Assembly: GCA_026982475.1 (NCBI GenBank)
Contig: JALSHB010000010.1
Coordinates: 1 to 33,906 of the forward strand
Length of the DNA: 33,906 bases
Reading direction: 5' to 3'
Source of the DNA: Chromatiales bacterium
GTDB taxonomy: Bacteria > Pseudomonadota > Gammaproteobacteria > SZUA-152
Numbering within the stretch: the first letter of the stretch is position 1; the number at the start of each line of letters is the position of its first letter. Under the pieces are notes generated by a model that saw only the letters and a list, made by a program, of their open reading frames with translations, had not been told where the DNA came from and made no database searches. Shown piece after piece: positions 2,204 to 28,153 of the stretch. The position numbers were made by a program, and so were the translations under genes.

Positions 2204-2268
2204 GATGATTCACCATTTTTCGTCAGAGTTGTTTCGTCAGTGTTGATAAGCTTCTTGCCGGCGGGGTA

Positions 2269-3618: not shown

Positions 3619-3683
3619 AATGCCAACTCCTCGTCATACCCGCCCGCGAACAACGCGGGCCTTCAAACAACTCATAACTGCCG

Positions 3684-3699: not shown

Positions 3700-3725
3700 G
3701 ATTTCAGGCCAACGCCAGAGGGGTT

Positions 3726-4121
3726 TCAGACCTTGTCCTGAAACAGGGTGCCCTTGTCCTCGTGCAGCTGCATCATGCGGCGCGCCAGCGCCAGCAATTC
3801 TTCGGAGGGAATCTGCCGAATCACCTCGTCGGTGGCGGAATCCATCACCTTGATCACCGTATCGCCGGTAACCTCATCGACCTCGAACTGGAGGGCGCGA
3901 TCCTGGCGCTGGATGAAATCATTGAGGTTCTGCACCGTTTCGCGCACTTCGCGTGAGCGGGTCTCGGCATCGCCCGTCTGCGGGGTCGCCGGCGGCAACG
4001 CCTTGCCATCGACAGGCAAATTGTCCGCCGCGACAGCGTCGGTGGATCTCGATGCTGTGGGCCTTGTCAGCCGGATATCAGGCGCCGCCTGGACCAGGGG
4101 AAGTTCAGTCACACTTGGCAT
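3726..4121 (-). CDS. flaG: FlaG family flagellar protein
   Basis: 131 residues. The C-terminal half (about 75-120) matches the FlaG family core: LQFEVDEVTGDTVIKVMD followed by VIRQIPSEELLALARRM. The N-terminal 60 residues are Pro/Thr/Ala-rich and look disordered. FlaG is a small protein found between flagellin and FliD genes in polar flagellates; it influences filament length but its biochemical role is unsettled. The ATG at 4121 has AAGGAGA at good spacing. It lies downstream of fliC, separated by a strong hairpin. Confidence 0.9.
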   Translation of the reverse strand: MPSVTELPLVQAAPDIRLTRPTASRSTDAVAADNLPVDGKALPPATPQTGDAETRSREVRETVQNLNDFIQRQDRALQFEVDEVTGDTVIKVMDSATDEVIRQIPSEELLALARRMMQLHEDKGTLFQDKV

Positions 4122-4141
4122 GCTACATCTCCTTACAGTTT

Positions 4142-4164
4142 CCCCGGGGCATCATGCCCCGGGG
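4142..4164 (-). terminator. Strong stem-loop after fliC
   Basis: A 10-bp perfect GC-rich stem (CCCCGGGGCA paired with TGCCCCGGGG) with a three-base loop lies 18 nt past the fliC stop. No run of U follows in the fliC direction, so it may act as an mRNA-stabilising or partially terminating structure that lets flagellin mRNA accumulate above flaG, rather than as a full intrinsic terminator. Confidence 0.55.
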
Positions 4165-4181
4165 GACTGTCTACTGGCCCA

Positions 4182-5015
4182 TTAACGCAAGAGCGACAGG
4201 ATGTTCTGCGGTACCTGGTTGGCTTGGGACAACATGGCCACACCCGCCTGCTGCAGGATCTGCGCGCGGGTCAGATTGGCCGTCTCGGCGGCGAAGTCCG
4301 TATCCTGAATGCGGCTGCGCGAGGCGCTCAGGTTTTCCACCGTGACCTGCAGATTGCGCACCGTGGATTCGAAGCGGTTCTGCTTGGAACCCAGGTCGGC
4401 GCGGATGGAATTGATGCGATCCAGGGCCGAATCCGCCAGGCCGATGGCGCTCAGCGCACCCGCGGCGGTGCTGACATTGGCGTTGGTGATGAAAGAGGCG
4501 ATACCACTGGCACCGGCGATGTCCTTGAACTGGATCTTCACCTGATTGTCGGCAACATTGGCGCCCTGGCCGATCTGGAACGCCGCCGATTGGGTGGAAC
4601 CGATGACCTTGACGCCATTGAAGGTCACGGCATCGGAGATTCGGGAGATTTCCTCGCGCAACTGAACCACTTCGTTGTCCAGGGCCTTGCGCTCGGTATT
4701 GGTATAGTTGCCGTTGGCCGACTGTACCGCCAGTTCACGCACGCGCTGCACCATGCTGGTGACTTCCTGCAGGGCGCCTTCGGCGGTCTGCGCCAGGGAG
4801 ATGCCGTCATTGGCATTGCGGATCGCCTGGTTATAGCCGCGAATCTGCGAGGTCAGGCCTTCCGCGATCTGCAGGCCGGCCGCATCGTCCTTGGCGCTGT
4901 TGATGCGCAGGCCGGAAGACAGCCGCTCCAGGGAGGTCTGCAAGGCACCCTGAGAAGAGTTCAAGGCGCGCTGGGAATTCAAGGACATGACATTGGTATT
5001 GATGTACTGAGGCAT
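4182..5015 (-). CDS. fliC: Flagellin
   Basis: 277 residues from the ATG at 5015, which has a good GAGGAG ribosome site seven bases upstream; a longer reading from 5033 lacks such a site. The N-terminal D0/D1 region (MPQYINTNVMSLNSQRAL, then LERLSSGLRINSAKDDAAG) and the C-terminal region (ASRSRIQDTDFAAETANL to NILSLLR) are classic flagellin. The middle, about residues 150-190, is short, so the outer D2/D3 domains are nearly absent. Ser/Thr residues in that stretch are candidate O-glycosylation sites, fitting the Maf and legionaminic acid genes next door. Expression is predicted from a sigma-28-type promoter at 5129-5156. Confidence 0.96.
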   Translation of the reverse strand: MPQYINTNVMSLNSQRALNSSQGALQTSLERLSSGLRINSAKDDAAGLQIAEGLTSQIRGYNQAIRNANDGISLAQTAEGALQEVTSMVQRVRELAVQSANGNYTNTERKALDNEVVQLREEISRISDAVTFNGVKVIGSTQSAAFQIGQGANVADNQVKIQFKDIAGASGIASFITNANVSTAAGALSAIGLADSALDRINSIRADLGSKQNRFESTVRNLQVTVENLSASRSRIQDTDFAAETANLTRAQILQQAGVAMLSQANQVPQNILSLLR

Positions 5016-5128
5016 TTTAATGCTCCTCTGCAAGTAGGCGCCCGATCACGCCCCCTGAAGGGCCGGGCTGCTTGATCTAGCGGATACGGTGCCTCGCCAT
5101 CGGGCTCCATTTACCGCTCCCACCTCAC

Positions 5129-5156
5129 TTATCGGTCCCGGGGCCGTGATCCTTTA
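5129..5156 (-). promoter_or_regulatory. Sigma-28 (FliA) type promoter for fliC
   Basis: On the minus strand a -35 TAAAG is followed after 16 nt by a -10 ACCGATAA. The sigma-28 consensus is TAAA, 15 nt, GCCGATAA, so the match is close, with one mismatch in the -10 and one extra spacer base. Transcription would start near 5122, leaving a leader of about 107 nt before the flagellin ATG. The remainder of the 5016-5359 gap shows only this site and the sigma-54 site for the next gene. Confidence 0.75.
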
Positions 5157-5290
5157 GCCCGCCCGCGAAAAAAATCAGCGTCACGCCCCCCCTCACGGGG
5201 CCGGACAAAGGCCGGGATGACGATATTTTTCACTCTGCAATCAACCACTTGAAGATCCATCCGGCAACGATGCCGGACACATGACGGCAA

Positions 5291-5306
5291 TGGCATATTT
5301 CCTGCT
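5291..5306 (+). promoter_or_regulatory. Sigma-54 type promoter for the Maf glycosyltransferase
   Basis: The site TGGCATATTTCCTGCT carries the -24 TGGCA and -12 TGCT elements at the exact sigma-54 spacing. Predicted transcription start is near 5318, about 40 nt before the TTG start at 5360. It would place the glycosyltransferase, and perhaps the leg genes behind it, in the same regulatory class as fliD. Confidence 0.6.
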
Positions 5307-5359
5307 TATTACATGGCCAGAAACCCATAACGTCATGAACCCGACACGGGACCCGCACA

Positions 5360-7858
5360 TTGACCATTTCACTACCAGGCCTCGAAGCCGCCGAAAGCAG
5401 CTTTCTCACCAACCGCTTCGGTGAAAGCTATCTGCACGCCGTCAACCGCGACGCCTTCAACAAGATCGGCTCTCAGGCCGTGTTCCAGCAGCAGCTGCCG
5501 GACAACCTGTGGCAGAAAGACCGCCTGCACATCATCATCGGCACCGACTCCGGGCTGCTGATCCGCCACATCCACGCCCACGGCGTGCCGCCGGGGAGCC
5601 GCTTCCTGTTCATCGAACTGGCCGAGGTCATCGAACTGGTAAAGCAGCGCCTCAGCGACCTGCCGGCGGAGCCACGCATCACCCTGGTCCCCCCGGAGGC
5701 CTGGCAACAGGCGGCGCAGGACGCCGATATCGAGACCTACGTCTACCTGGATCAGATCCAGCTGCTGAAGTCCGTCGGCGCCACCGATGCCTATCTGCCC
5801 ACCTACCGCGACCTGCACACCGCGGTGGAGGGCGACCTCAAGGGCTGGATCTGGGCCCTGCGCAGCCAGCTCGCCAGCAGCAGCTTCATCCAGTGCCAGT
5901 TGGACAATCTGGCCGAAAACCGCCTCCCCGCCACCTGTCTCAGGGGCGGCTTCAAGGGCCACAGCGCCGTGCTCCTCGCCGGCGGCCCGTCCCTGGACGA
6001 CATCCTGCCCTGGGTCAGGGAACACCGCGACGCGCTGCTGGTGGTGGCGGTGTCCCGCATCGCCCGGCGGCTGCTGGCGGAGGACGTACAGCCCGACATC
6101 GTCTGCACCATCGACCCCACCCGCCTCAGTTTCGACGTCAGCCGCGAGATGCTCGAATTCGACCCGCAACGCGTACTGCTGGTCAACGCCTACCACACCT
6201 ACCCGCCACTGCTGTCGCAGTGGCGGGGCGACAGCCTGTACCTCGGCCCGGCCTTCCCCTGGCCTGTCGAGGGGCAGGACGACAACCTGCCCGTCACCGG
6301 CCCCACGGTATCCAACACCGCCATCGCCCTGCTCATGGAGATGGGCGTGGCGCGGATCATCTTTGCCGGCCTCGACCTCTGCACCCGCCCCGACGGCACC
6401 CGCTATGCCGCCGGCAGCAACGAAAGCCAGGCCGGCCACGCCCTCGGCGCCATCGGCCTGCGCGTGCCCACCAATGCCGGCGGCATGAGCGACACCAGCG
6501 AAGACTTCATGCAATCGATCCACGACATCGGCCGCCAGGCCGCCGCCGCCCGCGAGCAGGGCATTCGCCTCATCAATCCCTCGCCCCACGCGGCGCGCAT
6601 CGAAGGCATCGAATACCTCCCACTGCAAGAGATCGAGCTGCCACCCGCGCCGCAGGACGTGCGCCGGCAGATTCGCGCCCGGCTGCCCGTCAGCGACCGG
6701 CAGGCGCGCCTCGAACACTACCGGCAAAGCGAGCGCGAACTGCGGCGCGTCGAAAACCAGCTGCGCAAGATCCGCGCCCTGAGCCAGGACGCCCTGCGCT
6801 ACAACGACGGCCTGTTCGGCCGCAACGGCATGACGCAGAGCTTCAAGTACAAGCACAAGATGGACAAGGTGGAAAAACGCCTCAACCGCGAGTTCCCGCA
6901 ACTGGGCGAGCTGGTCAAACGCTTCGGCATCCGCCAGTTCCTGCGCATCCTGCGCACCGACGAGCGGGAGTGGAGTGACGAAGAGGTGGAACAAACCGGC
7001 CGCATCTATTACGAGTCCTATCACGACGGCGCCGACCGCCTGCTGGGGCTGATCAGGGACGCCCTCGCCCGCCTGCGCTCGCGCATCGCCGAAGAGGACG
7101 AGCCCGTCGATCTCGACGCCCTCGCCGCCCAGTGGCGCGCCGACGAGGCGCCGGGGCGGGGCCGCGTCTGGCGCCACCACCACCCGCAGGCCACCCTGAC
7201 GGCGCGGGCGCAGGCCACCCTCGACCAGCTGGCGGCGGAATTCGACGCCCGCCTCAACGAGCAGGACACCCCGCACATGGCCCGCTGCCGCCAGCAGGCC
7301 GGGCTGGAGAACGTGCCCAGCAAGGCCGCCCTGCTGTTCCGCCAGGGCGATCACGAAGGACTTCGCAACCTGGCGGAGGCCCTGGCCCGGCTCGACAGCG
7401 CCGAGGCCGCCGAACTGCGCCACTTCGTCCTCGGCCAGCTGGCCGAGAGCGAGGGCCGTGACGACGACGCCCTGCAGGCCTACCAGCAGATCGGCGAAGG
7501 CCCCCTGCTGGAAGACGCCCTCGGCCGCATCAGCAGCCTGTGCCTGGCGCGCGACGACCTCGACAACGCCCGCCTGGCCTTCGACTGCCTGAGCCAGATC
7601 TCACCCGGCTACCTGCCGCAATACGCCGAGCTGATGCGCATCACCGGACGCATGGACGAGGCCGCCGAGCTGTACGCCCGCTACCTGGAGCAGGTCCCCG
7701 AAGACCTCTCCACCATGCTGCGCCTGGGCCGCCTGTATCAGGAAAGCGGCGTCATTGACGGCGCCCGCTGGGCCTTCGACCATGTACTGGAACGCGACCC
7801 CGACAACCGCGCCGCGCGCAGCCTGCGCGCCGCCCTGCCCACGGAGTGTCAGGCATGA
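5360..7858 (+). CDS. Maf-type motility accessory factor, flagellin glycosyltransferase with TPR tail
   Basis: 832 residues from a TTG start; an in-frame stop at 5336 and no nearby ATG force this choice. The central part matches the DUF115/MptE-like Maf domain: GGPSLD near residue 208, a TIDPTRLSFD strand, GPTVSNTA near 313 and FAGLDL shortly after. These resemble the GT42-like sialyltransferase fold. Residues about 690-830 hold roughly four TPR-like helical repeats. Maf proteins transfer pseudaminic or legionaminic acid from CMP donors to Ser/Thr of flagellin in the cytoplasm. Placement between fliC and a complete legionaminic acid gene set supports this. The stop overlaps the legB start (ATGA), indicating coupled translation. 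TPR fusion is less common than the plain Maf form. Confidence 0.85.
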   Translation: MTISLPGLEAAESSFLTNRFGESYLHAVNRDAFNKIGSQAVFQQQLPDNLWQKDRLHIIIGTDSGLLIRHIHAHGVPPGSRFLFIELAEVIELVKQRLSDLPAEPRITLVPPEAWQQAAQDADIETYVYLDQIQLLKSVGATDAYLPTYRDLHTAVEGDLKGWIWALRSQLASSSFIQCQLDNLAENRLPATCLRGGFKGHSAVLLAGGPSLDDILPWVREHRDALLVVAVSRIARRLLAEDVQPDIVCTIDPTRLSFDVSREMLEFDPQRVLLVNAYHTYPPLLSQWRGDSLYLGPAFPWPVEGQDDNLPVTGPTVSNTAIALLMEMGVARIIFAGLDLCTRPDGTRYAAGSNESQAGHALGAIGLRVPTNAGGMSDTSEDFMQSIHDIGRQAAAAREQGIRLINPSPHAARIEGIEYLPLQEIELPPAPQDVRRQIRARLPVSDRQARLEHYRQSERELRRVENQLRKIRALSQDALRYNDGLFGRNGMTQSFKYKHKMDKVEKRLNREFPQLGELVKRFGIRQFLRILRTDEREWSDEEVEQTGRIYYESYHDGADRLLGLIRDALARLRSRIAEEDEPVDLDALAAQWRADEAPGRGRVWRHHHPQATLTARAQATLDQLAAEFDARLNEQDTPHMARCRQQAGLENVPSKAALLFRQGDHEGLRNLAEALARLDSAEAAELRHFVLGQLAESEGRDDDALQAYQQIGEGPLLEDALGRISSLCLARDDLDNARLAFDCLSQISPGYLPQYAELMRITGRMDEAAELYARYLEQVPEDLSTMLRLGRLYQESGVIDGARWAFDHVLERDPDNRAARSLRAALPTECQA

Positions 7859-8865
7859 ACCTGCACGGCAAGAAAATCCTCGTCACCGGCGCCGACGGCT
7901 TCATCGGCTCCCACCTCACCGAGGCCCTGATCCGCCGCGGCGGCGAGGTGCGCGCCTTCGTCTTCTACAACAGCTTCGGCCACTGGGGCTGGCTGGACCA
8001 ATCGCCCACCGAGATCAAGCGCGAACTGGACGTGTTCGCCGGCGACGTGCGCGACCCCCACGGCGTGCGCACCGCCCTGCAGGGCTGCGACGTGGTGCTG
8101 CACCTGGCCGCACTCATCGGCATCCCCTATTCCTACCACTCGCCCGACACCTATGTGGACACCAACATCAAGGGCACCCTCAACATCCTCCAGGCGGCCC
8201 GCGACTTGCAGTTGGACAAGGTAGTGCACACCTCCACCAGCGAGGTCTACGGCACCGCCCGATACGTGCCCATCGACGAGCAACACCCCCTGCAGGGTCA
8301 GTCACCCTACTCGGCCAGCAAGATCGGCGCGGACCAGATGGCCCTGTCGTTCCATCGCTCCTTCGACACACCGGTGACCATCGCCCGCCCCTTCAACACC
8401 TTCGGCCCCCGCCAGTCGGCGCGCGCCGTGATCCCCACCGTCATCACCCAGATCGCCAACGGCGAGCGCAAACTCAAGCTGGGCGCCCTGCACCCCACGC
8501 GCGACTTCAACTACGTGAAGGACACGGTCAACGGCTTCATCGCCATGGCCGAGTCGGACGCCGTGCTGGGCGAGGAAGTGAACCTGGGCAGTAACTTCGA
8601 GATCAGCATCGGCGACACGGTAAAACTCATCGCCGAGGCCATGGGCGCCGAGGTGGAAATCGAAACCGACGAACAGCGCCTGCGCCCCGAAAACAGCGAA
8701 GTGGAACGCCTCTGGGCCGACAACCGCAAGGCCCGTGAACTGCTCGGCTGGCAACCCGAATACGGCGGCCGCGAAGGCTTCAAACACGCATTGACCGAAA
8801 CAGCGGCGTGGTTCACCGACCCCGCCAACCTGGCGCACTACAAGCATGGCATCTACAACATCTGA
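7855..8865 (+). CDS. legB: NAD-dependent sugar 4,6-dehydratase LegB
   Basis: 336 residues from the ATG at 7855, which overlaps the preceding stop and has GGAG upstream. It is an extended short-chain dehydrogenase: GADGFIGS at 12-19 binds NAD(P), TSTSEVYG provides the catalytic Ser/Thr region, and Tyr152/Lys156 (YSASK) form the catalytic pair. The protein resembles the Campylobacter LegB sequence I recall along most of its length, including PFNTFGPRQSARA and EQRLRPENSEV. LegB removes water from nucleotide-GlcNAc to give the 4-keto-6-deoxy intermediate, the first committed step to legionaminic acid. A following 394-nt gap filled with repeats separates it from legC. Confidence 0.92.
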   Translation: MNLHGKKILVTGADGFIGSHLTEALIRRGGEVRAFVFYNSFGHWGWLDQSPTEIKRELDVFAGDVRDPHGVRTALQGCDVVLHLAALIGIPYSYHSPDTYVDTNIKGTLNILQAARDLQLDKVVHTSTSEVYGTARYVPIDEQHPLQGQSPYSASKIGADQMALSFHRSFDTPVTIARPFNTFGPRQSARAVIPTVITQIANGERKLKLGALHPTRDFNYVKDTVNGFIAMAESDAVLGEEVNLGSNFEISIGDTVKLIAEAMGAEVEIETDEQRLRPENSEVERLWADNRKARELLGWQPEYGGREGFKHALTETAAWFTDPANLAHYKHGIYNI

Positions 8866-8895
8866 GATGGGCAGATGAATCCGCGAAAAAGATTC

Positions 8896-9217
8896 CAACG
8901 CAAAGGCGCAAAGGCGCAAAGGGCGCAAAGAAAAAACCCGGAAATTGTCTTTCGGCTGAATGGAAATCTGTGCCGCCCCGTAGCTTGGGGTAACGGCTGC
9001 ATGGAAAAGCTGAGATCGGGAACCGGTCGAGAGACCGGCCTGGGCCATGCAGGAGGCAAGGCGACGCAGAATGCCAAAGCCGGGGAACGAACCTCAACAA
9101 TACCGTCTTTATATCCACTGCCGTTGGGGTTCATTCCTCTCCCCCATCCACCGTCGCGCAAATACCTTTTTCAGTCCTTTCCTTTGCGGCCTTTGCGCCT
9201 TTGCGCCTTTGCGTTGA
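8896..9217. repeat. Inverted pair of GGCGCAAA-type repeats between legB and legC
   Basis: A left arm at about 8896-8936 contains tandem GCAAAGGC units beginning CAACGCAAAGG. A right arm at about 9176-9217 is its inverted copy ending CCTTTGCGTTG. They enclose about 240 nt with no convincing gene; the only other structure seen is a small hairpin near 9018-9036 (ACCGGTC / GACCGG). The same arm pair recurs between legC and legG. The overall form, with inverted ends and no gene inside, is like a miniature mobile or palindromic repeated element. The interval 8866-9259 holds nothing else I can support. Confidence 0.75.
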
Positions 9218-9259
9218 GTCTTTCATGTTCGAAAACATCCATCCCGGCACTGGCCACGC

Positions 9260-10420
9260 ATGAGTTTGAATAACACCATCCTCGACACCCTGCGCGAGCT
9301 GCTGCCGCCGCAGCGCCCCATCGGCCTGCACGAGCCGAGCTTCGGCGACACGGAAAAGGCGCTGGTCGCCGACTGCCTCGACAGCGGCTGGGTATCCACG
9401 GCGGGCCAATACGTCGACCGCTTCGAACAGGATCTGGCCACCTACACCGGCATCCCCCACGCCGTCGCCACCGTCAACGGCACCAGCGCCCTGCACATCT
9501 GCCTGATCCTCGCCGGCGTGCGGCCCGGTGACGAGGTACTGCTGCCCGCCCTGACCTTCGTCGGCAGCGCCAACCCCATCGCCTGGCTGGGGGCCACGCC
9601 CCACTTCGTCGATTGCGAAGCGGAAACGCTGGGCGTCGATCCCGATCGGCTGGAGAGCCATCTCGCGGAGATCGCCGAGGTGCGTGGCGCCACCTGCTGG
9701 AACAAACAAACCGGCCAACCCATCCGCGCCCTGATGGCGGTGCACGTGCTCGGCCATCCGGCGCGCATGCAAGCGCTGGCGGCGCTCGCCCGGCGCTATC
9801 ACCTCACCCTCATCGAGGACGCCGCCGAGGCGCTGGGTTCATGGCGCACGGGCCTGCACAGCGGCAGCTGGGGCCAGTTGACCGCCCTCAGCTTCAACGG
9901 CAACAAGATCATCACCAGCGGTGGCGGCGGCGCGATACTCACCGGCGACCCGGATCTCGCCAATCGCGCCAGACACCTCACCACCACCGCCAAGCGGCCT
10001 CACCCCTGGGCCTTCGAACACGACGCCGTGGGCTACAACTACCGCCTGCCCAACCTCAACGCCGCCCTCGGCTGCGCCCAGCTCGAACGCCTGCCCGAAC
10101 GCCTGGCGAAAAAGCGCCGCCTGGCCGAAAGCTACGCCCAGGCCTTTGCCAGCCTCCCGGGACTCCACTTCCAGTTGGAACCCGAGGACTGCCGCAGCAA
10201 CTACTGGCTCAACCTGCTACTGCTGCCGGACGCCGAACAACGCGACGCCCTGCTCGCCGCCGCCAACGATGAAGGCATCCAGCTGCGCCCCTTCTGGACC
10301 CCTCTGCACCGGCAGAACATGTATGCCGATGCCCCGCGCATGGAATTGCCATGTACTGAAGCACTGTTCGCACGCGGCGTCTGCCTGCCCAGTTCAGCCG
10401 CCTTGGGAGGTAAAGAATGA
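9260..10420 (+). CDS. legC: LegC-type PLP-dependent sugar aminotransferase
   Basis: 386 residues, DegT/DnrJ/EryC1/StrS aminotransferase fold. GTSALHICL near residue 70 is the cofactor-phosphate region, EDAAEALGS carries the PLP-contacting Asp, and Lys216 in FNGNKIITSGGGG is the expected Schiff-base lysine. The YNYRLPNLNAALG segment is typical of the family. LegC transfers an amino group from glutamate to C4 of the 4-keto sugar made by LegB. The N-terminus (LREL.P....GLHEPSFG) and order after legB favour LegC over other members such as PseC. No clear ribosome site is seen before the ATG at 9260. Repeats lie on both sides. Confidence 0.88.
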   Translation: MSLNNTILDTLRELLPPQRPIGLHEPSFGDTEKALVADCLDSGWVSTAGQYVDRFEQDLATYTGIPHAVATVNGTSALHICLILAGVRPGDEVLLPALTFVGSANPIAWLGATPHFVDCEAETLGVDPDRLESHLAEIAEVRGATCWNKQTGQPIRALMAVHVLGHPARMQALAALARRYHLTLIEDAAEALGSWRTGLHSGSWGQLTALSFNGNKIITSGGGGAILTGDPDLANRARHLTTTAKRPHPWAFEHDAVGYNYRLPNLNAALGCAQLERLPERLAKKRRLAESYAQAFASLPGLHFQLEPEDCRSNYWLNLLLLPDAEQRDALLAAANDEGIQLRPFWTPLHRQNMYADAPRMELPCTEALFARGVCLPSSAALGGKE

Positions 10421-10450
10421 GCCTCGGTGTCCCTTTCAAGTTTTCTTTTT

Positions 10451-10607
10451 CAACGCAGAGGCGCAAAGGCGCAAAGGACGCAAAGTTTTTTACAATCGCC
10501 CTGGGAAAGTCTGCAAAAACTGAAACGCTGAGCGGAAGAGATATTGCGCATGAAACGCTTCAAAAAGTTTTTCTTTGCGCCCTTTGCGCCTTTGCGCCTT
10601 TGCGTTG
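10451..10607. repeat. Inverted pair of GGCGCAAA-type repeats between legC and legG
   Basis: A left arm at about 10451-10485 begins CAACGCAGAGGCGCAAAGG. A right arm at about 10571-10607 is the inverted form ending CCTTTGCGTTG. They enclose about 85 nt. The arms match those between legB and legC but the enclosed DNA differs. The rest of the 220-nt gap (10421-10640) holds nothing gene-like. Confidence 0.75.
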
Positions 10608-10640
10608 GATCTTCTCTGTCACAACCCAACCCACCACACC

Positions 10641-11801
10641 ATGAACAGCCCACGCCGCATCTGTGCCGTCACCGGCTCGCGCGCCGACTGGGGCCTTCTG
10701 CGCCCGGTACTGGACGGCATCCGCGCCGTGGATGACCTCGAGCTGCAACTGGCCGTCACCGGCAGCCACCTGTCGCCGGCCCATGGCCACACCGTGGACA
10801 TCATCGAAGATCAGGGTTTCAGCATCGATGCCCGCATCGACCTGGCCCAGCGCGGCGACGACGCCCGCGCCGTGACCCAGGCCCTGGGGCGCGGCGTGGC
10901 GGCCTTCGCCGACGTCCTGCAAGACCTCGATCCCGACCTGCTGCTGGTGCTGGGCGACCGTTTCGAAATCCTCGCCGCGGTGCAGGCCGCCCTCATCGCC
11001 CGCGTACCGGTGGCCCACATCGCCGGCGGCGACATCACCGAGGGCGCCTTCGACGACGCCATCCGCCACGCCATCAGCAAGATGTCCCACCTGCACTTCG
11101 CCACCCATGCCGAAGCGGCGCGGCGGCTGCGGCAAATGGGCGAGGCCAGGGTGCACCTCAGCGGCAGCCCCGGCATCGACCAGCTCCTGGCCACGCCACG
11201 ACTCGACCGCGCCGCACTGTCGCAATCGCTGGAATTCCCGCTGCGCGCGCGCAACCTGGCCATCACCTTTCATCCCGCCACCCTGGACGATGCCGACCCG
11301 TTGGAGCAACTCGGCGCCCTGCTCGCCGCCCTGGACCGCCTCGGCCCCGACACCGGCCTGGTCTTCACCGGCGCCAACAGCGACACCGGCGGCGACCGCC
11401 TCAATGCCCGCGTCAAAGAATTCGTCGACAGCCGCGACAACGCCTGCCTGCACCGTTCCCTGGGCCAGCAGCGCTATTACAGCCTGGTGGCCCTGGCCGA
11501 CGCGGTGGTGGGCAACTCCTCCAGCGGCCTCTACGAGGCCCCCTCGCTGGGCACGCCGACGGTGAACATCGGCAGCCGCCAGGACGGCCGGCCGCGCGCC
11601 GCCTCGGTCATCGACTGCGCGGCGGAGGCGGACGCCATCGTCGAGGCCATCCACGCCGCTTACCGCCGGGACATGGCGGGGGTGGAAAACCCCTACGGCG
11701 ACGGCCGCGCCAGCGAGCGCATCCTCGACGTGCTGCGCGGCCCCTGGTCGCGCCAGGCGCTGATCCACAAGCGTTTCATCGACCGGGAAGACACCCCATG
11801 A
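10641..11801 (+). CDS. legG: NeuC/LegG-type UDP-sugar 2-epimerase (hydrolysing)
   Basis: 386 residues from the ATG at 10641. An earlier in-frame ATG at 10575 lies inside the repeat arm and is rejected. TGSRADWGLL at the N-terminus, LGDRFEIL near 110, HIAGGD near 131, and GNSSSGLYEAPSLGTPTVNIGSRQ toward the C-terminus are the signature blocks of the NeuC/WecB epimerase family. LegG hydrolyses the UDP- or GDP-linked diacetyl-bacillosamine-type sugar while inverting C2, giving 2,4-diacetamido-2,4,6-trideoxymannose. Its stop overlaps the start of the synthase gene (ATGA), a sign of one operon. A plain sialic acid NeuC is the main alternative; legB and legC argue against that. Confidence 0.88.
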   Translation: MNSPRRICAVTGSRADWGLLRPVLDGIRAVDDLELQLAVTGSHLSPAHGHTVDIIEDQGFSIDARIDLAQRGDDARAVTQALGRGVAAFADVLQDLDPDLLLVLGDRFEILAAVQAALIARVPVAHIAGGDITEGAFDDAIRHAISKMSHLHFATHAEAARRLRQMGEARVHLSGSPGIDQLLATPRLDRAALSQSLEFPLRARNLAITFHPATLDDADPLEQLGALLAALDRLGPDTGLVFTGANSDTGGDRLNARVKEFVDSRDNACLHRSLGQQRYYSLVALADAVVGNSSSGLYEAPSLGTPTVNIGSRQDGRPRAASVIDCAAEADAIVEAIHAAYRRDMAGVENPYGDGRASERILDVLRGPWSRQALIHKRFIDREDTP

Positions 11802-12895
11802 GCGCACACATCACCGTCATCGCCGAGGCCGGCGTCAATCACGACGGCGACATCGAACGCGCCCTGGCCCTGGTGGACGCCGCCGCCGAGGCCGGCGCCG
11901 ACGTGGTCAAGTTCCAGACCTTCCGACCCGCCGCCCTGGTCAGCCGCCACGCGCCGCGCGCCGACTACCAGGTCCGCAACGACACCGCCCGCCAGGACGA
12001 CTCCCAGCTCGCCATGCTGCAACGCCTGGCGCTCGACGACGCCGACCACTTCCGCCTGCGCGAGCACTGCCAGGCGCGGGGCATCGAATTCCTCTCCTCG
12101 CCCTTCGACGCCGACAGCGCCCGCTTCCTCATCGAGGACATGGCCCTGCCCCGGCTCAAGCTGGGCTCCGGCGAGCTGACCAACGCCCCGCTGCTGCTGC
12201 AGATCGCCCGCAGCGACCGGCCCCTGATCCTATCCACCGGCATGGCCAGCGTGGCGGAAATCCGCGAAGCCCTGGGCGTACTGGCCTTCGGCTATCTCCA
12301 CGAAACCGCGCCGCCTTCGGTCCCGGCCTTCACCGCCGCCTTCGAGCGCACCGCAGGTTATGTGGTACTGAAGGAAAGGCTCACCCTGCTGCACTGCACC
12401 ACCGAATACCCGGCGCCCTTCGTCGACGTGAACCTGCGCGCCATGGATCACCTGCGCGACGCCTTCGGCCTGCCCGTGGGCTTTTCCGACCACACCCCCG
12501 GCATCGCCATGCCCATCGCCGCCGCCGCGCGCGGCGCCCGCGTGATCGAGAAACACTTCACCCTCGACCGCCACCTGCCCGGCCCCGACCATCGCGCCTC
12601 GCTGGAGCCCCATGAACTGCACGCCATGGTGGAAGGCATCCGCCAGGTGGAACAGGCCCTCGGCGACGGCAAGAAGCACGTGGCGGACAGCGAGCGGAAG
12701 AACCGCGCCATCGCACGCAAATCCCTGGTGGCCGCCCGCCCCATCCACGCCGGCGAGGTCTTCAGCGAAGACAACCTCACCGCCAAACGGCCCGGCGACG
12801 GCCTCGCCCCCGCGCACTACTGGACCCTGCTGGGCCACCCGGCGAGGCGCGACTACAACACCGACGAGGCCATCGACGAGGAAGAGCTGCCATGA
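11798..12895 (+). CDS. legI: Legionaminic acid synthase (NeuB family)
   Basis: 365 residues. The NeuB barrel spans about 1-280 (IAEAGVNHDGDIERAL, VKFQTF, KLGSGELTNAPLL, LSTGMAS, HCTTEYP, GFSDHTPG, EKHFTLDR). A C-terminal antifreeze-like SAF domain follows (RKSLVAARPIHAGEVFSEDNL to LLGHPARRDY). The enzyme condenses phosphoenolpyruvate with the 6-deoxy-diacetamido mannose from LegG to make the nine-carbon acid. The ATG overlaps the preceding stop by four bases. NeuB, LegI and PseI look alike; the neighbouring LegB/C/G enzymes decide for LegI. Confidence 0.9.
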   Translation: MSAHITVIAEAGVNHDGDIERALALVDAAAEAGADVVKFQTFRPAALVSRHAPRADYQVRNDTARQDDSQLAMLQRLALDDADHFRLREHCQARGIEFLSSPFDADSARFLIEDMALPRLKLGSGELTNAPLLLQIARSDRPLILSTGMASVAEIREALGVLAFGYLHETAPPSVPAFTAAFERTAGYVVLKERLTLLHCTTEYPAPFVDVNLRAMDHLRDAFGLPVGFSDHTPGIAMPIAAAARGARVIEKHFTLDRHLPGPDHRASLEPHELHAMVEGIRQVEQALGDGKKHVADSERKNRAIARKSLVAARPIHAGEVFSEDNLTAKRPGDGLAPAHYWTLLGHPARRDYNTDEAIDEEELP

Positions 12896-12912
12896 CATCA
12901 AACACCCACCCT

Positions 12913-12970
12913 GTAGGAGCGCCTTCAGGCGCGACAGCCGCACCACAACGATCGCGCCTGAAGGCGCTCC
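12913..12970. repeat. REP-like palindrome between legI and legH
   Basis: A perfect 19-bp inverted repeat (GGAGCGCCTTCAGGCGCGA at 12916-12934 and its complement at 12952-12970) with a 17-nt spacer. It is preceded by GTAG at 12913, the tetranucleotide that marks REP elements mobilised by RAYT transposases. It fills most of the 98-nt gap. Confidence 0.75.
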
Positions 12971-12993
12971 AAAAAGGGGAGATAAAGTAAGCC

Positions 12994-13653
12994 GTGGCAA
13001 ACCCGACAACAACCTCCCCCCCCCTGATCCTGCTCGGCGCCGGCGGCCACGCCACCGTGCTGACGGAGATCCTGCAACAGGCCGGCGAGCCCCTGCTCGG
13101 CCTGTGCGCGCCGCGACCACCGGCGCCCGGCCTGCTCGCCGCCCTGGCCTATCTGGGCGACGACGCGGCCGCCGAACGGCACGCCCCGGATGCCGTGCAA
13201 ATGATCAACGGCCTCGGCTCCAGCGCCGCGGCCACGGCGCGGGCCGAGATCTTCCGCCGCTTCCGCAAGGCCGGCTACCGCTTCGCCGACGTGCGCCACC
13301 CCTCGGCCATCGTCAGCCCCAGCGCGCGCACCGGCGCGGGCCTGCAGGCGCTGGCCGGCTGCCTGATCAACAGCGAGGCCCGCCTCGGCGACAACGTGCT
13401 GATCAACAGCCACGCCGTGGTCGAACACCACTGCGACATCGGCGACCACTGCCACGTCGCCAGCGGCGCCGTGCTCTGCGGTGGCTGCCAACTGGAGGCG
13501 GGGGTGCACGTGGGCGCCGGGGCGGTGGTGAAACAGGGCGTGCACATCGGCGCCGGCGCGGTGATCGCCGCCGGCGCGGTGGTCATCGCCGACGCACCGC
13601 CGCACAGCCTGGTGGCCGGGGTGCCGGCACGTATCAAGCGGGAGAACATCTGA
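12994..13653 (+). CDS. legH: PglD/NeuD/LegH-type sugar N-acetyltransferase
   Basis: 219 residues from GTG at 12994 with GGGGAG upstream. An N-terminal PglD-like nucleotide-sugar domain ([17 protein letters not shown], about 10-85) precedes a left-handed beta-helix of hexapeptide repeats (about 100-210). [14 protein letters not shown] contains the His expected to act as base, and GVPAR near the end is a common closing motif. LegH transfers acetyl from acetyl-CoA to the 4-amino group made by LegC. A NeuD-like O-acetyltransferase role is possible, but with no other acetyltransferase in the cluster LegH is the better fit. The stop overlaps legF by one base (TGATG). Confidence 0.78.
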
Positions 13654-22309: not shown

Positions 22310-22651
22310 TCAATAACCGCCCTTGCGGCGTGATTCCGGCAGGCCGGCGATGCGCCCACCCTGCTTGCTGGGGTCTTTGGGAAACAACTCGTAGATGTCC
22401 TTCTGGCCAAGCTTCTCGTTCCACTTGGCCGACATGGCCTTGACGATGTTGCGCGTGTTGGGCTGATTCTGTGCATTGTTGAAATATTCGTCGCGCAGGT
22501 ATTCGATCAGATCCCAGTGCTTCTGGGTCAGCTCGCCGATTTCTTCCATGCGGGCCATTTCCTCGGCCAGCTCCTTGCTCCAGTCATCCAGATTGACCAG
22601 GTATCCGGTGGCGGTGGTCTCGATGGTCTTGCCGTTGAATTCAATTGCCAT
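22310..22651 (-). CDS. rspA: Cysteine-less DsrC/TusE-family protein
   Basis: 113 residues with AAAGGAGG before the ATG. The fold matches DsrC: MAIEFNGKTIETTATGYL, DDWSKELAEEMA, HWDLIEYLRDEYF and YELFPKDP align with the true DsrC at 29349. DsrC ends QACKIAGLPKPTGCV with two redox cysteines; this protein ends QGGRIAGLPESRRKGGY, so Gly replaces both (positions 99 and 112). It therefore cannot carry trisulfide or persulfide on the tail. DsrC-family proteins without these cysteines have been named RspA and proposed to be regulatory. It is the last gene of the operon starting at 25256. Confidence 0.9.
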   Translation of the reverse strand: MAIEFNGKTIETTATGYLVNLDDWSKELAEEMARMEEIGELTQKHWDLIEYLRDEYFNNAQNQPNTRNIVKAMSAKWNEKLGQKDIYELFPKDPSKQGGRIAGLPESRRKGGY

Positions 22652-22705: not shown

Positions 22706-23386
22706 TTAGTCTGTATTCAGGGTCTGAATGCCCTTGTGCGGAATGAACAGGCCGCAGCCCAGCAATCTGTGCGGCCCCAGGCCCTGCGCCTGTAGCCGCA
22801 GGGATTCGTCGTATTCCAGGTCGGCGACCATCAGACTGCGGGTCTGCACATGGCCTTCAGGCGTCTTGATGGCATGCAGGGTGCCGCACAGCAGTTTGCG
22901 GGGGCGGATCTCCAGCCGCCGCAGCTGCGCGGCCACCCAGTCCAGCATCTGCTCCTCGTTTTCGAGATCCCGGTCCGTGGCCTGGTGGCGCGCGAACAGC
23001 GTCGTCAGCACACTTAGCGGCCGTTGCGTGGCGCGCTTCAGCGTCAGCGGATAGCCGTCCACGTCCAGGGTCTTGCCCTGCAACGACAGGGCGTCCTCGA
23101 TACGGTGTTTCGGCACCCGCAGGGTGAACCTGGTGCGCCGGGATAACTGCAACAAGTCATCCGGGCCTTGTGGCCGCATCCAGCCATTGCCCGACGCGGC
23201 GCCGTGAATGGTGTGGATGCCGGCGCTTGGCTCATCGGTCAGCCAGGGCAACTCGCGCTGCATGGCCTGCGCCAGGGCGTAGGCATGATCGACCGGCAGG
23301 CAGCGGCAATCGATGCCGAAGACGAGATCGACCACGGCATCACTCACCTCCGGTGGCTCGTTGCCCTTGTCCTCTTCCCAGTACAT
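22706..23386 (-). CDS. Cas6/Cmx6-like RAMP protein without CRISPR
   Basis: 226 residues. PVDHAYALAQAM, AGIHTIHGAASGNGW, LSRRTRFTLRVP and RSLMVADL resemble, from memory, proteins annotated as type I-MYXAN Cas6/Cmx6. The C-terminus has the glycine-rich loop of RAMP ribonucleases (GLGPHRLLGCGLFIPHKGI, about 202-220). His34, His58 and His61 are candidate catalytic residues. Cas6 cuts CRISPR RNA at repeats, yet no array or other cas gene lies in the window. It starts 18 nt after the 235-residue gene and ends 54 nt before the DsrC-like gene. Its role may be processing of another RNA, or RNA binding only. Confidence 0.75.
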   Translation of the reverse strand: MYWEEDKGNEPPEVSDAVVDLVFGIDCRCLPVDHAYALAQAMQRELPWLTDEPSAGIHTIHGAASGNGWMRPQGPDDLLQLSRRTRFTLRVPKHRIEDALSLQGKTLDVDGYPLTLKRATQRPLSVLTTLFARHQATDRDLENEEQMLDWVAAQLRRLEIRPRKLLCGTLHAIKTPEGHVQTRSLMVADLEYDESLRLQAQGLGPHRLLGCGLFIPHKGIQTLNTD

Positions 23387-23404: not shown

Positions 23405-24112
23405 CTATTGATCCGGCAAGGAGGCCCAGATGGCCTCGCGGTCGATCCACCAGTCTTCCTGCACCAGCACGTCGACGACATTGCGCAGACGCGGCAGGAA
23501 CTTGGCCGGGTCCGTCAGCTCCAGCTTTTCCATCCAGAAGTCGAATTGCTCCTGCTTCTGCACGTCGCTGTGGCGGCGCGCCACGGTGCCCATCATGTGA
23601 TTGGTGAACAGCATCAGGTTGTCGCGCTGCTTGCCTTCGGCGCGCAGGTCGACGATATAGTGCGCCACCGCGGCGGCCACCGCGGCGCCATCGGCCTCGG
23701 CGGGCGTCTCGTCGATGATGTGCTGCAGCATGGCCACGCTCAGTTCGGGATCGATGGGGAAGGTCACCGCCAGCCACACGCCCTGCCCGAGCGCCGCCAG
23801 CGACCAGGGCTGATCGGCCATGAACATGATGTTGCAGGCATGCACGGCACCCTCCCACTGCTCGGCGGCGACGAACGTATCGAAAGCCTCGCGGGCGGTA
23901 TCGAAGGCGGCTTCGGTCTGCCGCAGGTCGATGAGGATTTCCGCGATGCGGTTCTGTATTTCGGCCTTCTGCGTGGGCGCGTAACCGGCGGGAAGCTCGA
24001 TCAGTTCCTGTTCCGCCGCGGCCAGTTCCTGTCGCAGTCTTTCCTCGGAGACGACTTCTTCGTCACCGCTGTCGGCATCACGCATGCCGGCCCCTTCGTC
24101 GAGATATTTCAT
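23405..24112 (-). CDS. Conserved hypothetical helical protein (TPR-like)
   Basis: 235 residues, acidic at the N-terminus (MKYLDEGAGMRDADSGDEEVV). Residues about 25-140 are paired helices (LRQELAAAEQELIELP, KAEIQNRIAEILIDLRQTEAAFDTAREAFDTFVAAEQWEGAVHACN) that resemble TPR-type packing. A C-terminal region with FWMEKLELTDPAKFLPRLRNVVDVLVQEDWWIDREAIWASL closes the protein. No membrane segment or catalytic motif is seen. The start is one nucleotide from the upstream stop, so translation is coupled. No function is known to me; a scaffold role is a guess. Confidence 0.85.
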   Translation of the reverse strand: MKYLDEGAGMRDADSGDEEVVSEERLRQELAAAEQELIELPAGYAPTQKAEIQNRIAEILIDLRQTEAAFDTAREAFDTFVAAEQWEGAVHACNIMFMADQPWSLAALGQGVWLAVTFPIDPELSVAMLQHIIDETPAEADGAAVAAAVAHYIVDLRAEGKQRDNLMLFTNHMMGTVARRHSDVQKQEQFDFWMEKLELTDPAKFLPRLRNVVDVLVQEDWWIDREAIWASLPDQ

Positions 24113-24113
24113 G

Positions 24114-24341
24114 TCAGTCTTCTTCTGTGCAGCCGTTGGTGGTACCCATTACCGAATACACACCGGCGAAGGCGCCTTCGACACGATCCTCCCAGTTGGC
24201 CGGGGTGTCAGGGTAATTGGGTTTGATGTCGATCTTGAGGTGAATCTCGCCCTGTCTGGCCTGTTCGCCAATCACGTGGACCAGATCCTCGAAGGACTCC
24301 AGACCCGGGTTCTGAATCAATAGTTCACTCAGGTAAATCAT
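24114..24341 (-). CDS. Small hypothetical protein of the dsr-divergent operon
   Basis: 75 residues, starting MIYLSELLIQNPGLESFEDLVHVIGEQARQG and ending NGCTEED. A helical N-half and a beta-like EIHLKIDIKPNYPDTP segment are visible; one cysteine lies near the end. It lies 21 nt after the TauD-like gene and one nucleotide before the 235-residue gene. I do not recognise it. Confidence 0.8.
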   Translation of the reverse strand: MIYLSELLIQNPGLESFEDLVHVIGEQARQGEIHLKIDIKPNYPDTPANWEDRVEGAFAGVYSVMGTTNGCTEED

Positions 24342-24362: not shown

Positions 24363-25256
24363 TTAGCTCACACGCTGATAAAAGCGCGCCCGGTACATCA
24401 GACGGCCCTGGCCGGCCGGCGCCTCGTCTTCAAAGGCGCTGCGGGTGTGCAGTACATTGTTGCAGATCACGCCCTGACCGGCGCTCAGCCGGTGACGGAA
24501 GATCATGGGTGAATCCTCCGCCAACAGGGCCTCCAGCGAGCGCACCGCGGCCTGGGTGTCGGCGTCACGTTTCCATGCGATGGAACGGGTGCGCGCGGTG
24601 TAGCGCATGTGCAGTTTGCCGCTGGCCGCATCCACGGTAAATACCGGGCCACTCTGCGCCGGACGAATCTCGACACCCTGTTCAACGTTGGCGGGGATGG
24701 TCATGGCGTCCGGCTGCATCAGGGCGGCGATGTGGCGTGGATTTTCGTCGCGCAGGCGGATGTAGGCGATCTCGTGATCCAGCAGGCGGTTTTCGCCCCC
24801 CCGCGCCGCCGGACGCGCACAGTGCAGCACCATGGCGAGCACCCGGTGCCGGGGCGAATTGTAGTAGCCGTCGGTGTGCCAGCTGATGGCATGATTGCTG
24901 TAGGGAATGTAGTCGTGCTGGCGGCGCTGCGCCGACACCTGCAGGGCCGAGATGCCATCGTCGTCGGCGTACATGTTGCAGTCCAGGTCGTGCAGACCAA
25001 GCTGCGCGCCCAGGTCGGTCAGCAGGGTCTTGTCCAGGGCTTCGTCGGGATGCGCCAGGGTGTAGACAGCCATGTTGGCGCGCTCGCAGGCCCGCAAAAT
25101 CGCGGCACGCTCGGTATCGCTCAGGGCATGCGGGTTTTCGACTGGCACCACCAATTCATCCAGACGGACGGGAAAGTCCGCCAGCTTGCGCTCCCGCCAG
25201 GCGCCGTAGGCCTGCGTGGCGTCAAGATCGAAGGGACTGTTGTCTGTGTGCGCCAT
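24363..25256 (-). CDS. TauD/TfdA-like Fe(II)/2-oxoglutarate dioxygenase
   Basis: 297 residues from the ATG at 25256; a longer frame to 25340 begins in noncoding-looking sequence and is rejected. His127 and Asp129 (SWHTDGYYN) and His270 (NNVLHTRSAF) form the iron triad, with Arg285 or Arg289 (GRLMYRARF) for 2-oxoglutarate. TauD relatives release sulfite from taurine, so a sulfur-linked substrate is possible but is only inferred from proximity to dsr. It is the first gene of a leftward five-gene operon and is divergent from dsrA across 448 nt. Confidence 0.9.
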   Translation of the reverse strand: MAHTDNSPFDLDATQAYGAWRERKLADFPVRLDELVVPVENPHALSDTERAAILRACERANMAVYTLAHPDEALDKTLLTDLGAQLGLHDLDCNMYADDDGISALQVSAQRRQHDYIPYSNHAISWHTDGYYNSPRHRVLAMVLHCARPAARGGENRLLDHEIAYIRLRDENPRHIAALMQPDAMTIPANVEQGVEIRPAQSGPVFTVDAASGKLHMRYTARTRSIAWKRDADTQAAVRSLEALLAEDSPMIFRHRLSAGQGVICNNVLHTRSAFEDEAPAGQGRLMYRARFYQRVS

Positions 25257-25331
25257 GGCGTCGTTTCCAGCGGTTGAGGTCAAGCGACCCATGCTCCATA
25301 CCCGATCTGCCACCCCTCCCCAAACGGGGGA

Positions 25332-25359
25332 TTTACACATTCAAGCATTAGCATATAAT
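25332..25359 (+). promoter_or_regulatory. Sigma-70 type promoter, probably for dsrA
   Basis: TTTACA, 16-nt spacer, perfect TATAAT at 25354-25359. Transcription would start near 25366, giving a dsrA leader of about 340 nt. Overlapping leftward boxes for the TauD-like operon are plausible in this AT-rich stretch but not resolvable. Confidence 0.55.
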
Positions 25360-25489
25360 CATATTTGCAATATCCAACATAACAGAGATTCAGCGACTGG
25401 CAACACCACATCAGGGATATACGAAGCTGCTCCAGTGGTCATGTAGCAGGGGCAGTCGCCGGCGTCCAGCGCGATTCGTCAATCCGATA

Positions 25490-25515
25490 CCTGAATCCGC
25501 AGGCTCAGGTATCAC
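25490..25515. promoter_or_regulatory. Palindromic motif, copy 2, upstream of dsrA
   Basis: CCTGA-ATCCGCAGGC-TCAGG followed by TATCAC; here the outer arms extend to ATACCTGA/TCAGGTAT (8 bp). Matches 21323-21348 at 24 of 26 positions. It sits inside the predicted dsrA leader. An additional TGACC/GGTCA half-site pair lies at 25553-25579. The rest of 25257-25704 shows no gene. Confidence 0.55.
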
Positions 25516-25704
25516 CTAAGGGATAGCCCCGCTGCGGCGACCCCCTCCCCTTTGACCAATTGCGCCATGACGCGGGTCACATAGACTTCAATCAGTCAAA
25601 GGCTGACCATTTGTATGGCTTCCCGCGAAGTCCAGAAAAACAAGAATGGTCCGATGTTATGCCAGAAGGGCTAGACGCGATTTCAAAACCAGGAGAAACG
25701 GGCA

Positions 25705-27012
25705 ATGGCCGAGCAAACACCCAAGAACCCCGAGAAGCACAGTACTTACCTCCCCAAGGAGAAGCATTCCAGCAAGCCGCTGCATGACACCCCCATGCTG
25801 GACGAGCTGGAATCCGGCCCCTGGCCGAGCTTTGTCACCGGCCTGAAACGTCTCGCCATGGACAACAACATGATGGTGGACCTGCTGGGTCAGCTGGAGC
25901 ATTCCTACGAGACCCGCCTGGGTTACTGGAAGGGTGGCACGGTCTCCGTTCTGGGTTATGGCGGCGGCATCATCCCCCGCTTCACCGAGCTGATGGACGA
26001 AGAGGGCAAGCCCCTGTTCCCCGAGGCCAAGGAATTCCACACCGTGCGCGTGCAGCCGCCCGCCGGCAACCACTACACCACCGCCATGCTGCGTCAACTG
26101 TCCGAGTCCTGGAACAAGTACGGTTCCGGCCTCATCGCCTTCCACGGCCAGACCGGCAACATCATGTTCATCGGCACCACCTCTGAAAAGACCCAGCCCT
26201 TCTTCGACGAGATCAACAGCTACGGCTGGGATCTCGGCGGCGCGGGTCCCTGCGTGCGCACCGGCATGTCCTGCGTGGGCGCCGCCCGCTGCGAACAGTC
26301 CTGTGCCAACGAACAGAAGATCCACCGCCTGCTGGTCAACAACTTCCTCGACGACATGCACCGCCCGGCCCTGCCCTACAAGTTCAAGTTCAAGGTATCG
26401 GGCTGTCCCAACGACTGCATGAACTCCATCCAGCGTTCCGACTTCGCCGTCATCGGCACCTGGCGCGACGACATGCAGGTAGACCAGGAAGAAGTGAAGA
26501 AATTCGTCGCCGACAAGGGCCGCGACTACGTGGTCGAAAACGTCGTCAACCTCTGCCCCACCAACGCCCTGAGCCTCAACGAAGACGACACCCTCAACGT
26601 CGACAACCGCAACTGTGTGCGCTGCATGCACTGCATCAACGTCATGACCAAGGCGCTGTCACCGGGCAACGACAAGGGCGTCACCATCCTCCTCGGCGGC
26701 AAACGCACGCTGAAGATCGGCGACCTGATGGGCACCGTCATCGTCCCCTTCATGAAGCTGGAGACCGAAGAGGACTACGAGCGCATCGTCGAACTGGCCG
26801 AGGAGATCATCGATTTCTGGGCCGAGAACGCCCTGGAGCACGAGCGCGTCGGCGAGACCATCGACCGCATCGGCCTGGTCAACTTCCTCGAGGGCATCGA
26901 TCTCGACGTTGATCCGCACATGATCAGCGAGACGCGCCAGAGCAGCTACATCCGCATGGACAAGTGGGACGAAGAAGCCGAGAAGTGGAAACAGCGTCAG
27001 GCCGCGGGCTGA
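25705..27012 (+). CDS. dsrA: Reverse dissimilatory sulfite reductase alpha subunit DsrA
   Basis: 435 residues, AGGAGA before the ATG. Cys190-x5-Cys196 (CVGAARC) and Cys234-x3-Cys238 (CPNDC) ligate the siroheme-coupled [4Fe-4S] cluster. A ferredoxin domain follows with Cys284, Cys304, Cys307 and Cys310 (CPTNALS, CVRCMHC). The N-terminus (LESGPWPSFVTGLKRLA) resembles oxidative-type DsrA of sulfur oxidisers, and dsrEFH downstream supports that direction. In the cytoplasm DsrAB oxidises sulfur carried by DsrC to sulfite. It heads the operon. Confidence 0.98.
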   Translation: MAEQTPKNPEKHSTYLPKEKHSSKPLHDTPMLDELESGPWPSFVTGLKRLAMDNNMMVDLLGQLEHSYETRLGYWKGGTVSVLGYGGGIIPRFTELMDEEGKPLFPEAKEFHTVRVQPPAGNHYTTAMLRQLSESWNKYGSGLIAFHGQTGNIMFIGTTSEKTQPFFDEINSYGWDLGGAGPCVRTGMSCVGAARCEQSCANEQKIHRLLVNNFLDDMHRPALPYKFKFKVSGCPNDCMNSIQRSDFAVIGTWRDDMQVDQEEVKKFVADKGRDYVVENVVNLCPTNALSLNEDDTLNVDNRNCVRCMHCINVMTKALSPGNDKGVTILLGGKRTLKIGDLMGTVIVPFMKLETEEDYERIVELAEEIIDFWAENALEHERVGETIDRIGLVNFLEGIDLDVDPHMISETRQSSYIRMDKWDEEAEKWKQRQAAG

Positions 27013-27079
27013 CCCGCCACTCCTGGACACAGGCACCCCACCGAACACAGATTCGACAAAATTATTGGAGGTTAACCCG

Positions 27080-28153
27080 ATGAGCGAGCAACCGAAATTC
27101 CCCATCGAGAGCGGTGTACCGGATCCCTTCCAGTACATGCACCCGATCTACATCAAGAACTTCGGCAACTGGAAGTATCACGAACGTCCCCGTCCCGGCG
27201 TGCTGCATCACGTCGCCAAGAGCGGTGACGAGGTATGGACCGTACGCGTCGGCACCCAGCGCCAGCTCGGCCCCTACGAGATCAACCTGCTGTGCGACAT
27301 CATCGACAAGTACGCCGATGGCTACGTGCGCTTCACCATCCGTTCCAACATGGAGGTCAGCGTCACCGACGAGGCCAAGGTCGAGCCGCTGATCCAGGCC
27401 TTCGAGGACGCCGGCTACCCGGTGGGCGGCACCGGTCCCTCGGTGACCATGATTTCCCACACCCAGGGCTGGTTGCACTGCGACATCCCCGGTACCGACG
27501 CCTCCGGCGTGGTCAAGGCGCTGATGGACGAGCTGCACGACGAATTCACCGCCGAGCAGATGCCCAACCGCGTGCACATCACCACCTCCTGCTGCCAGAT
27601 CAACTGTGGCGGCCAGGGCGACATCGCCATCAACGTGCAGCACACCAAGCCACCGAAGATCAATCACGACCTGGTGGCCAACGTCTGCGAGCGTCCCTCC
27701 GTGGTGGCCCGCTGCCCGGTCGCCGCCATCCGCCCGGCGATGGTCAACGGCAAGCCCTCACTGGAAGTCGACGAAAAGAAATGCATCTGCTGCGGCGCCT
27801 GCTTCCCGCCCTGCCCACCCATGCAGATCAACGATCCTGACCACTCCAAGCTGGCCATCTGGATCGGCGGCAAGCACTCCAACGCCCGCAGCAAGCCCAT
27901 GTTCCACAAGCTGGTGGTGGCCGGCGTGCCCAACAACCCGCCGCGCTGGCCCGAGGTATCCGAGATCGTCAAGAAGATCCTCTCGGTCTACAAGGACGAC
28001 GCCAAGGATTGGGAGCGCATCGGCGACTGGGTCGAGCGCATCGGCTGGCCACGCTTCTTCGAGCTGACCGACCTGCCGTTCACCAAGTTCCACGTCGAAA
28101 ACTGGCGCGGCGGCCGTCATGCCCTCAACGCCTCGGCGCACATCCGTTTCTAA
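27080..28153 (+). CDS. dsrB: Reverse dissimilatory sulfite reductase beta subunit DsrB
   Basis: 357 residues from the ATG at 27080, chosen because TTGGAGGT lies eight bases before it; an upstream start at 27065 overlaps that site. Cys171, Cys172 and Cys176 (SCCQINCGGQGD) mark the siroheme/cluster region, and CICCGACFPPC (235-245) the ferredoxin domain. Each alpha-beta unit forms part of the alpha2-beta2 enzyme that contacts the DsrC tail. The gene follows dsrA after 67 nt. Confidence 0.98.
   Translation: MSEQPKFPIESGVPDPFQYMHPIYIKNFGNWKYHERPRPGVLHHVAKSGDEVWTVRVGTQRQLGPYEINLLCDIIDKYADGYVRFTIRSNMEVSVTDEAKVEPLIQAFEDAGYPVGGTGPSVTMISHTQGWLHCDIPGTDASGVVKALMDELHDEFTAEQMPNRVHITTSCCQINCGGQGDIAINVQHTKPPKINHDLVANVCERPSVVARCPVAAIRPAMVNGKPSLEVDEKKCICCGACFPPCPPMQINDPDHSKLAIWIGGKHSNARSKPMFHKLVVAGVPNNPPRWPEVSEIVKKILSVYKDDAKDWERIGDWVERIGWPRFFELTDLPFTKFHVENWRGGRHALNASAHIRF

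Follow-up and report, generated by a model that had tools for sequence, protein, structure and literature searches.

The window, a stretch of 33,906 nucleotides from Chromatiales bacterium (contig JALSHB010000010.1, assembly GCA_026982475.1), carries the reverse-Dsr (rDsr) sulfur-oxidation genes dsrA and dsrB on the forward strand, followed in the order dsrE-dsrF-dsrH-dsrC-dsrM-dsrK. Divergent from them lies an operon that starts with a TauD-like oxygenase and includes a gene for a Cas6-like protein, named here Cas6L (Table 1). Neighbors in related loci are, in order, the TauD-like oxygenase, u75, often u235, Cas6L and a DsrC/TusE-family protein, the usual partners being the TauD-like protein, the small protein u75 (usually 60-75 aa) and the DsrC paralogue. 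There is no cas gene around Cas6L. u75 has invariant SE, DTP and W positions, its structural model is of medium confidence, and it seems to be an undescribed companion of the dsr locus. In two related loci from 1.1 Mb genomes (L173 and L174) further conserved small genes (64, 68-74 and 106 aa, without Pfam match) and 2OG-Fe(II) oxygenases are found between the DsrC paralogue and a glycosyl-transferase-3-like gene.

Table 1. Features of the Cas6L and dsr region in the window
Feature	Position	Strand	Description and support
DsrC/TusE-family paralogue	22310..22651	-	Downstream partner of Cas6L, without the C-terminal Cys (tail GLPESRRKGGY); PF04358 6e-33, TIGR03342 6e-29; in 70 of 80 loci; no Cys in the tail in 63/63
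Cas6L	22706..23386	-	Cas6-like protein, 226 aa, ATG start; PF09559/TIGR02807
Glycine-rich loop	22751..22783	-	Residues 202-212 of Cas6L (GLGPHRLLGCG)
His34 codon	23285..23287	-	Start of helix 1 of Cas6L, canonical position of the Cas6 catalytic His
u235	23405..24112	-	Conserved protein between u75 and Cas6L; no family hit of note; in 43 of 80 loci; dN/dS about 0.09
u75	24114..24341	-	Very conserved small protein upstream of Cas6L, 75 aa (59-79 aa in relatives); in 74 of 80 loci; dN/dS 0.03-0.05; no Pfam, NCBIfam or PDB fold match
TauD/TfdA-family Fe(II)/2-oxoglutarate dioxygenase	24363..25340	-	First gene of the divergent operon; PF02668 3e-22; in 66 of 80 loci
dsrA-leader hairpin	25486..25513		Strong hairpin of the window
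Conserved palindrome	25509..25526	+	GTATCACCTAAGGGATAG, between the two divergent transcription units; more probably a DNA operator than a Cas6L RNA target
dsrA	25705..27012	+	Divergent from the Cas6L operon; TIGR02064 590 bits
dsrB	27065..28153	+	

Cas6L is a full-length member of the Cas6/Cmx6 family

Profile searches placed Cas6L above the curated cut-offs of Pfam PF09559 (213.5 bits, cut-off 26.7, 3e-63) and of NCBIfam TIGR02807 cas6_cmx6 (124.3 bits, cut-off 98.85), and PADLOC Cas6 models matched it with E-values down to 3.6e-61. An AlphaFold2 model built on 74 homologues has a pLDDT of 91.5 and shows the tandem ferredoxin-like RAMP fold. The closest solved structure is the Cas6 of a type I-B CAST (PDB 8fcj/8fcu; Z 24.4, rmsd 2.0 over 198 residues), and all listed structural neighbors are Cas6 or other RAMP proteins of CRISPR effector complexes. 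The glycines G202, G204, G210 and G212 of the glycine-rich loop are conserved.

His34 is invariant in 74/74 aligned homologues and directly precedes the predicted helix 35-45, the place where Cas6 enzymes carry their catalytic His; PDB 4c97, listed in the structural comparison, is the H37A mutant of such an enzyme. His34 is also present in 8/8 CRISPR-linked Cmx6 proteins compared, although one betaproteobacterial member outside the aligned set (L156) has Tyr at this position. His58 is kept in 70/74 and His61 in 64/74. Both are typical of the dsr-linked clade and not of a CRISPR-linked member, L124, and they lie in or beside a loop of low confidence in the model. This clade has its own conserved loop around residues 58-72, HxIHxAxSGNGWxRP, which L124 lacks.

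The first-pass annotation had described a Cas6-like protein with a RAMP glycine-rich loop and plausible catalytic histidines (34, 58 and 61), but with no array, cas gene or CRISPR-like repeat elsewhere in the window. This description was confirmed by our analyses, although of the three histidines only His34 is at the canonical place.

The genome has a CRISPR-Cas system with its own Cas6 domain

No CRISPR-like array was found in the window. However, the genome carries a complete type I-G CRISPR-Cas locus on another contig (C203, positions 1-13000 of the stretch examined), with Cas4-Cas1, Csb2, Csb1, Cas8g, Cas3g and an array of at least eight repeats (GCTTCAATGAGGCCGCAGCAATTTGCTGCGGAGAAC) that runs off the contig end. 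Csb2 is a Cas5-Cas6 fusion, and thus the cell has another Cas6 domain for this array, which is the only array found in the stretches of the genome that were scanned. A solitary CRISPR Cas6 that processes crRNA in trans for arrays elsewhere would agree with the family name and with the presence of an array in the genome. This reading is very unlikely and already largely refuted, since the array belongs to a system with its own Csb2, 67 of 128 genomes with the gene have no cas1 match, and the tree described below separates Cas6L from CRISPR-linked Cmx6.

Cas6L follows dsrA and not cas1

Three profile searches of what should be the same 370 Gammaproteobacteria (GTDB sense, Betaproteobacteria included; sets drawn with identical settings) gave 128 genomes with TIGR02807, 125 with dsrA (E below 1e-58, a threshold that we chose to include fragments) and 150 with cas1. 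Both Cas6L and dsrA are present in 122 genomes, Cas6L alone in 6, dsrA alone in 3 and neither in 239 (phi 0.946, Fisher p 5e-86), while phi is 0.105 for Cas6L and cas1. These genomes are related and the p value is therefore overstated. Still, within five families that vary (f2, f33, f51, f93 and f119) both genes are present or absent together. Of the matches within 6 kb, 90 of 90 are divergent from dsrA, with a median gap of 1.7 kb.

The exceptions are mostly explained by contig ends. Of the six genomes with Cas6L only, one (G376) has a true CRISPR cmx6 with cas1 on the same contig and an array. The other five keep neighbors of the dsr-linked type (TauD, u75, DsrC paralogue or DUF6866), and in four of them the contig ends on the side where dsrA would be. 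The three genomes with dsrA only have 657, 1880 and 150 bases left on the contig upstream of dsrA, which is the side where Cas6L belongs; in one of them TauD, u75 and a cut u235 are visible, with Cas6L beyond the contig end.

In a second sample of 348 genomes of the phylum, 37 have dsrA. The five of this class, including the genome studied here, all have Cas6L, again divergent, while the 32 of other classes have none. In four of these loci, probably from Betaproteobacteria as judged from the genomes, Cas6L is the first divergent gene and is followed by a DsrC paralogue ending in GKGGY.

Linkage alone can be inherited, and Cas6L could be a passenger gene without a functional tie to sulfur oxidation. 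This appears very unlikely. The gene is also kept in genomes where dsrA lies on another contig or far away (among them G117, G307 and G373), is missing together with dsrA within the five families mentioned above, and sits beside dsrA in complete genomes of only 1.0-1.1 Mb (G060, G149, G248, G276, G327 and G390), which from their size may be inferred to resemble those of obligate symbionts.

Phylogeny and selection

In a tree of 85 proteins, the 73 dsr-linked members and with them the four from the second sample fall on one side of a branch (support 99/91). On the other side are seven cyanobacterial plasmid Cmx6 proteins (six beside cas3 or cas8, while the Gloeobacter copy lies in another context) and L124. 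The bootstrap had not fully settled. The dN/dS of Cas6L against near relatives is 0.11-0.20, which indicates purifying selection.

Search for an RNA target at the locus

The first-pass annotation proposed that Cas6L may be a domesticated ribonuclease acting on a cellular RNA, with the long dsrA leader and its alternative hairpins as a tempting target. The leader is not supported so far. The strong leader hairpin of the window is absent from a close relative (L044, whose Cas6L is 86% identical) and is not kept in another (L046). An Rfam search of the window returned only a tRNA. The dsrA-dsrB, dsrH-dsrC and dsrC-dsrM gaps were also inspected. Many dsrA-dsrB gaps (for example in the related loci L059, L075 and L079) contain a GC-rich hairpin at a fixed place with changing sequence, but it is missing in the window and in several relatives, so it is not a universal target.

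An unbiased search found instead a palindrome, TA(T/C)C(C/T/A)C-N4-GGGATA, in 61 of 64 dsrA upstream regions, 145-384 bases before dsrA, with a second C-rich element about 35 bases further. The palindrome is highly conserved across gammaproteobacterial sulfur oxidizers and was the one element conserved across genera. It has a single hit in the genome studied here, at 25510-25526. It is also found at most dsrA genes lying apart from Cas6L and at none of 17 dsrA genes of other classes. This palindrome was first taken for the Cas6L target, but it fails as RNA. Variable pairs are filled independently (pair 4-15: CA 9, TG 9, CG 3), pair 6-13 is mispaired in 18 of 68, and shuffles reach the observed pairing, so that there is no base-pair covariation. 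Furthermore, it occurs, with scores from clear to borderline (19.8, 14.3 and 11.9), upstream of dsrA in the three contig-broken genomes without a detected Cas6L. A similarity to CRISPR repeat hairpins was tested against the arrays beside real Cmx6, but those repeats carry GATGCC-N4-GGCGTT, which is only a loose likeness. We read the palindrome as a probable DNA operator of the divergent promoters, for an unidentified regulator. No RNA target of Cas6L was thus found among the elements examined.

A possible role of Cas6L in sulfur oxidation

We suggest, with moderate confidence, that Cas6L is a Cas6-family protein that left CRISPR and became a fixed part of the rDsr locus of Gamma- and Betaproteobacteria. 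The computations show the family and the predicted Cas6 fold, the retention of the active-site His and of the glycine-rich loop, the lack of a CRISPR neighborhood, the near-perfect co-occurrence with dsrA and divergent linkage to it, the single clade and the purifying selection. What we infer is the function: Cas6L would bind, and probably cleave, a specific RNA of this locus, either the dsr transcript or that of its own operon, and so set the amount or stability of parts of the dsr mRNA together with u75 and the Cys-less DsrC paralogue. The conserved active-site His and the glycine-rich loop argue for RNA binding and probably for cleavage. An effect on sulfur oxidation or dsr expression is likewise inferred. 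The locus is the natural place to look for the RNA, because presence follows dsrA even where the two are not adjacent, although genomic linkage does not prove action on dsr RNA. In Allochromatium vinosum, dsrEFH and dsrC transcript levels exceed that of dsrA on sulfide (PMC3397948, citing earlier work), which leaves room for processing within the operon and makes it plausible without showing it. The congener A. palmeri has the locus (L111). The DsrC paralogue is not a standard sulfur carrier, since it lacks the C-terminal Cys; a sensing or regulatory role is inferred, and it may report the sulfur-loading state. A more specific version of this model, which remains tentative, is that a CRISPR-derived, guide-free ribonuclease was fixed once, in the ancestor of the gamma-/betaproteobacterial rDsr locus, as a dedicated post-transcriptional regulator or processing enzyme of the sulfur-oxidation transcripts, with the Cys-less DsrC paralogue as sensor.

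Two other readings are less likely. Cas6L may stay bound to a specific RNA without cleaving it, as many Cas6 proteins do with their product, and act as a regulator of translation or stability or as a scaffold for the DsrC paralogue. The RAMP fold and the positively charged conserved positions are enough for binding, the His is lost in L156, and the clade has its own conserved loop. However, binding alone would not require a His that is invariant at the canonical catalytic position in the aligned members. It is also possible, but unlikely, that the target is a different cellular RNA such as a tRNA. The neighboring protein belongs to the TusE/DsrC family, whose TusE branch feeds sulfur into tRNA thiolation, so Cas6L could couple sulfur status to tRNA. 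The linkage is tight and is found also in all four probably betaproteobacterial loci. On the other hand, the neighbor lacks the Cys needed for sulfur transfer, and the presence of Cas6L follows dsrA rather than general tRNA modification.

The interpretation of the first-pass annotation is therefore supported in part: a domesticated Cas6 without CRISPR is strongly supported, while RNA cleavage remains an inference and the dsrA leader as target is not supported so far. Two findings had been named beforehand as able to overturn it, a non-RAMP fold and an array elsewhere in the genome that matches the protein. The predicted fold is RAMP/Cas6, and the array that does exist belongs to the type I-G system with its own Cas6 domain, while many relatives carry the gene with no cas1 at all.

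Automatic annotation with an NCBIfam 'equivalog' model names this protein 'type I-MYXAN CRISPR-associated protein Cas6/Cmx6', yet all but one of the 128 gammaproteobacterial genomes with a hit either carry dsrA (122) or keep neighbors of the dsr-linked type (5). The record thus hides a conserved companion of the central pathway of bacterial sulfur oxidation, found in free-living purple and colorless sulfur bacteria and in genomes of about 1 Mb. If it cuts dsr RNA, it would be a case of a Cas6 doing ordinary gene regulation and would give a handle on how this long operon makes unequal amounts of its parts. The family is known, but its use here appears not to be described: no text linking Cas6 with dsr or describing a solitary Cas6 of this kind was found in the open-licence literature, paywalled work and preprints being outside the search.

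Comparison with known systems

Cas6L shares with the Cas6/Cmx6 of type I-B (MYXAN) CRISPR systems, such as those of cyanobacterial plasmid loci, the sequence family, the fold, the invariant His before helix 1 and the glycine-rich loop. Those genes lie beside cas3, cas8, cas7, cas5, cas1, cas2 and arrays, while Cas6L lies beside dsrAB with none of these, and it carries the conserved loop that is lacking in L124. The Cas6 of the type I-B CAST Cascade, the closest solved structure (25% identity), caps a guide-RNA complex of a transposon, and no such partners are found here. Csb2 of the type I-G system provides the Cas6 function in the same cell, but is a different protein at a different locus, with an array. 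Finally, the partner gene belongs to the DsrC/TusE family, but its product lacks the penultimate Cys that works in sulfur transfer, with a tail ending in KGGY instead of GCV.
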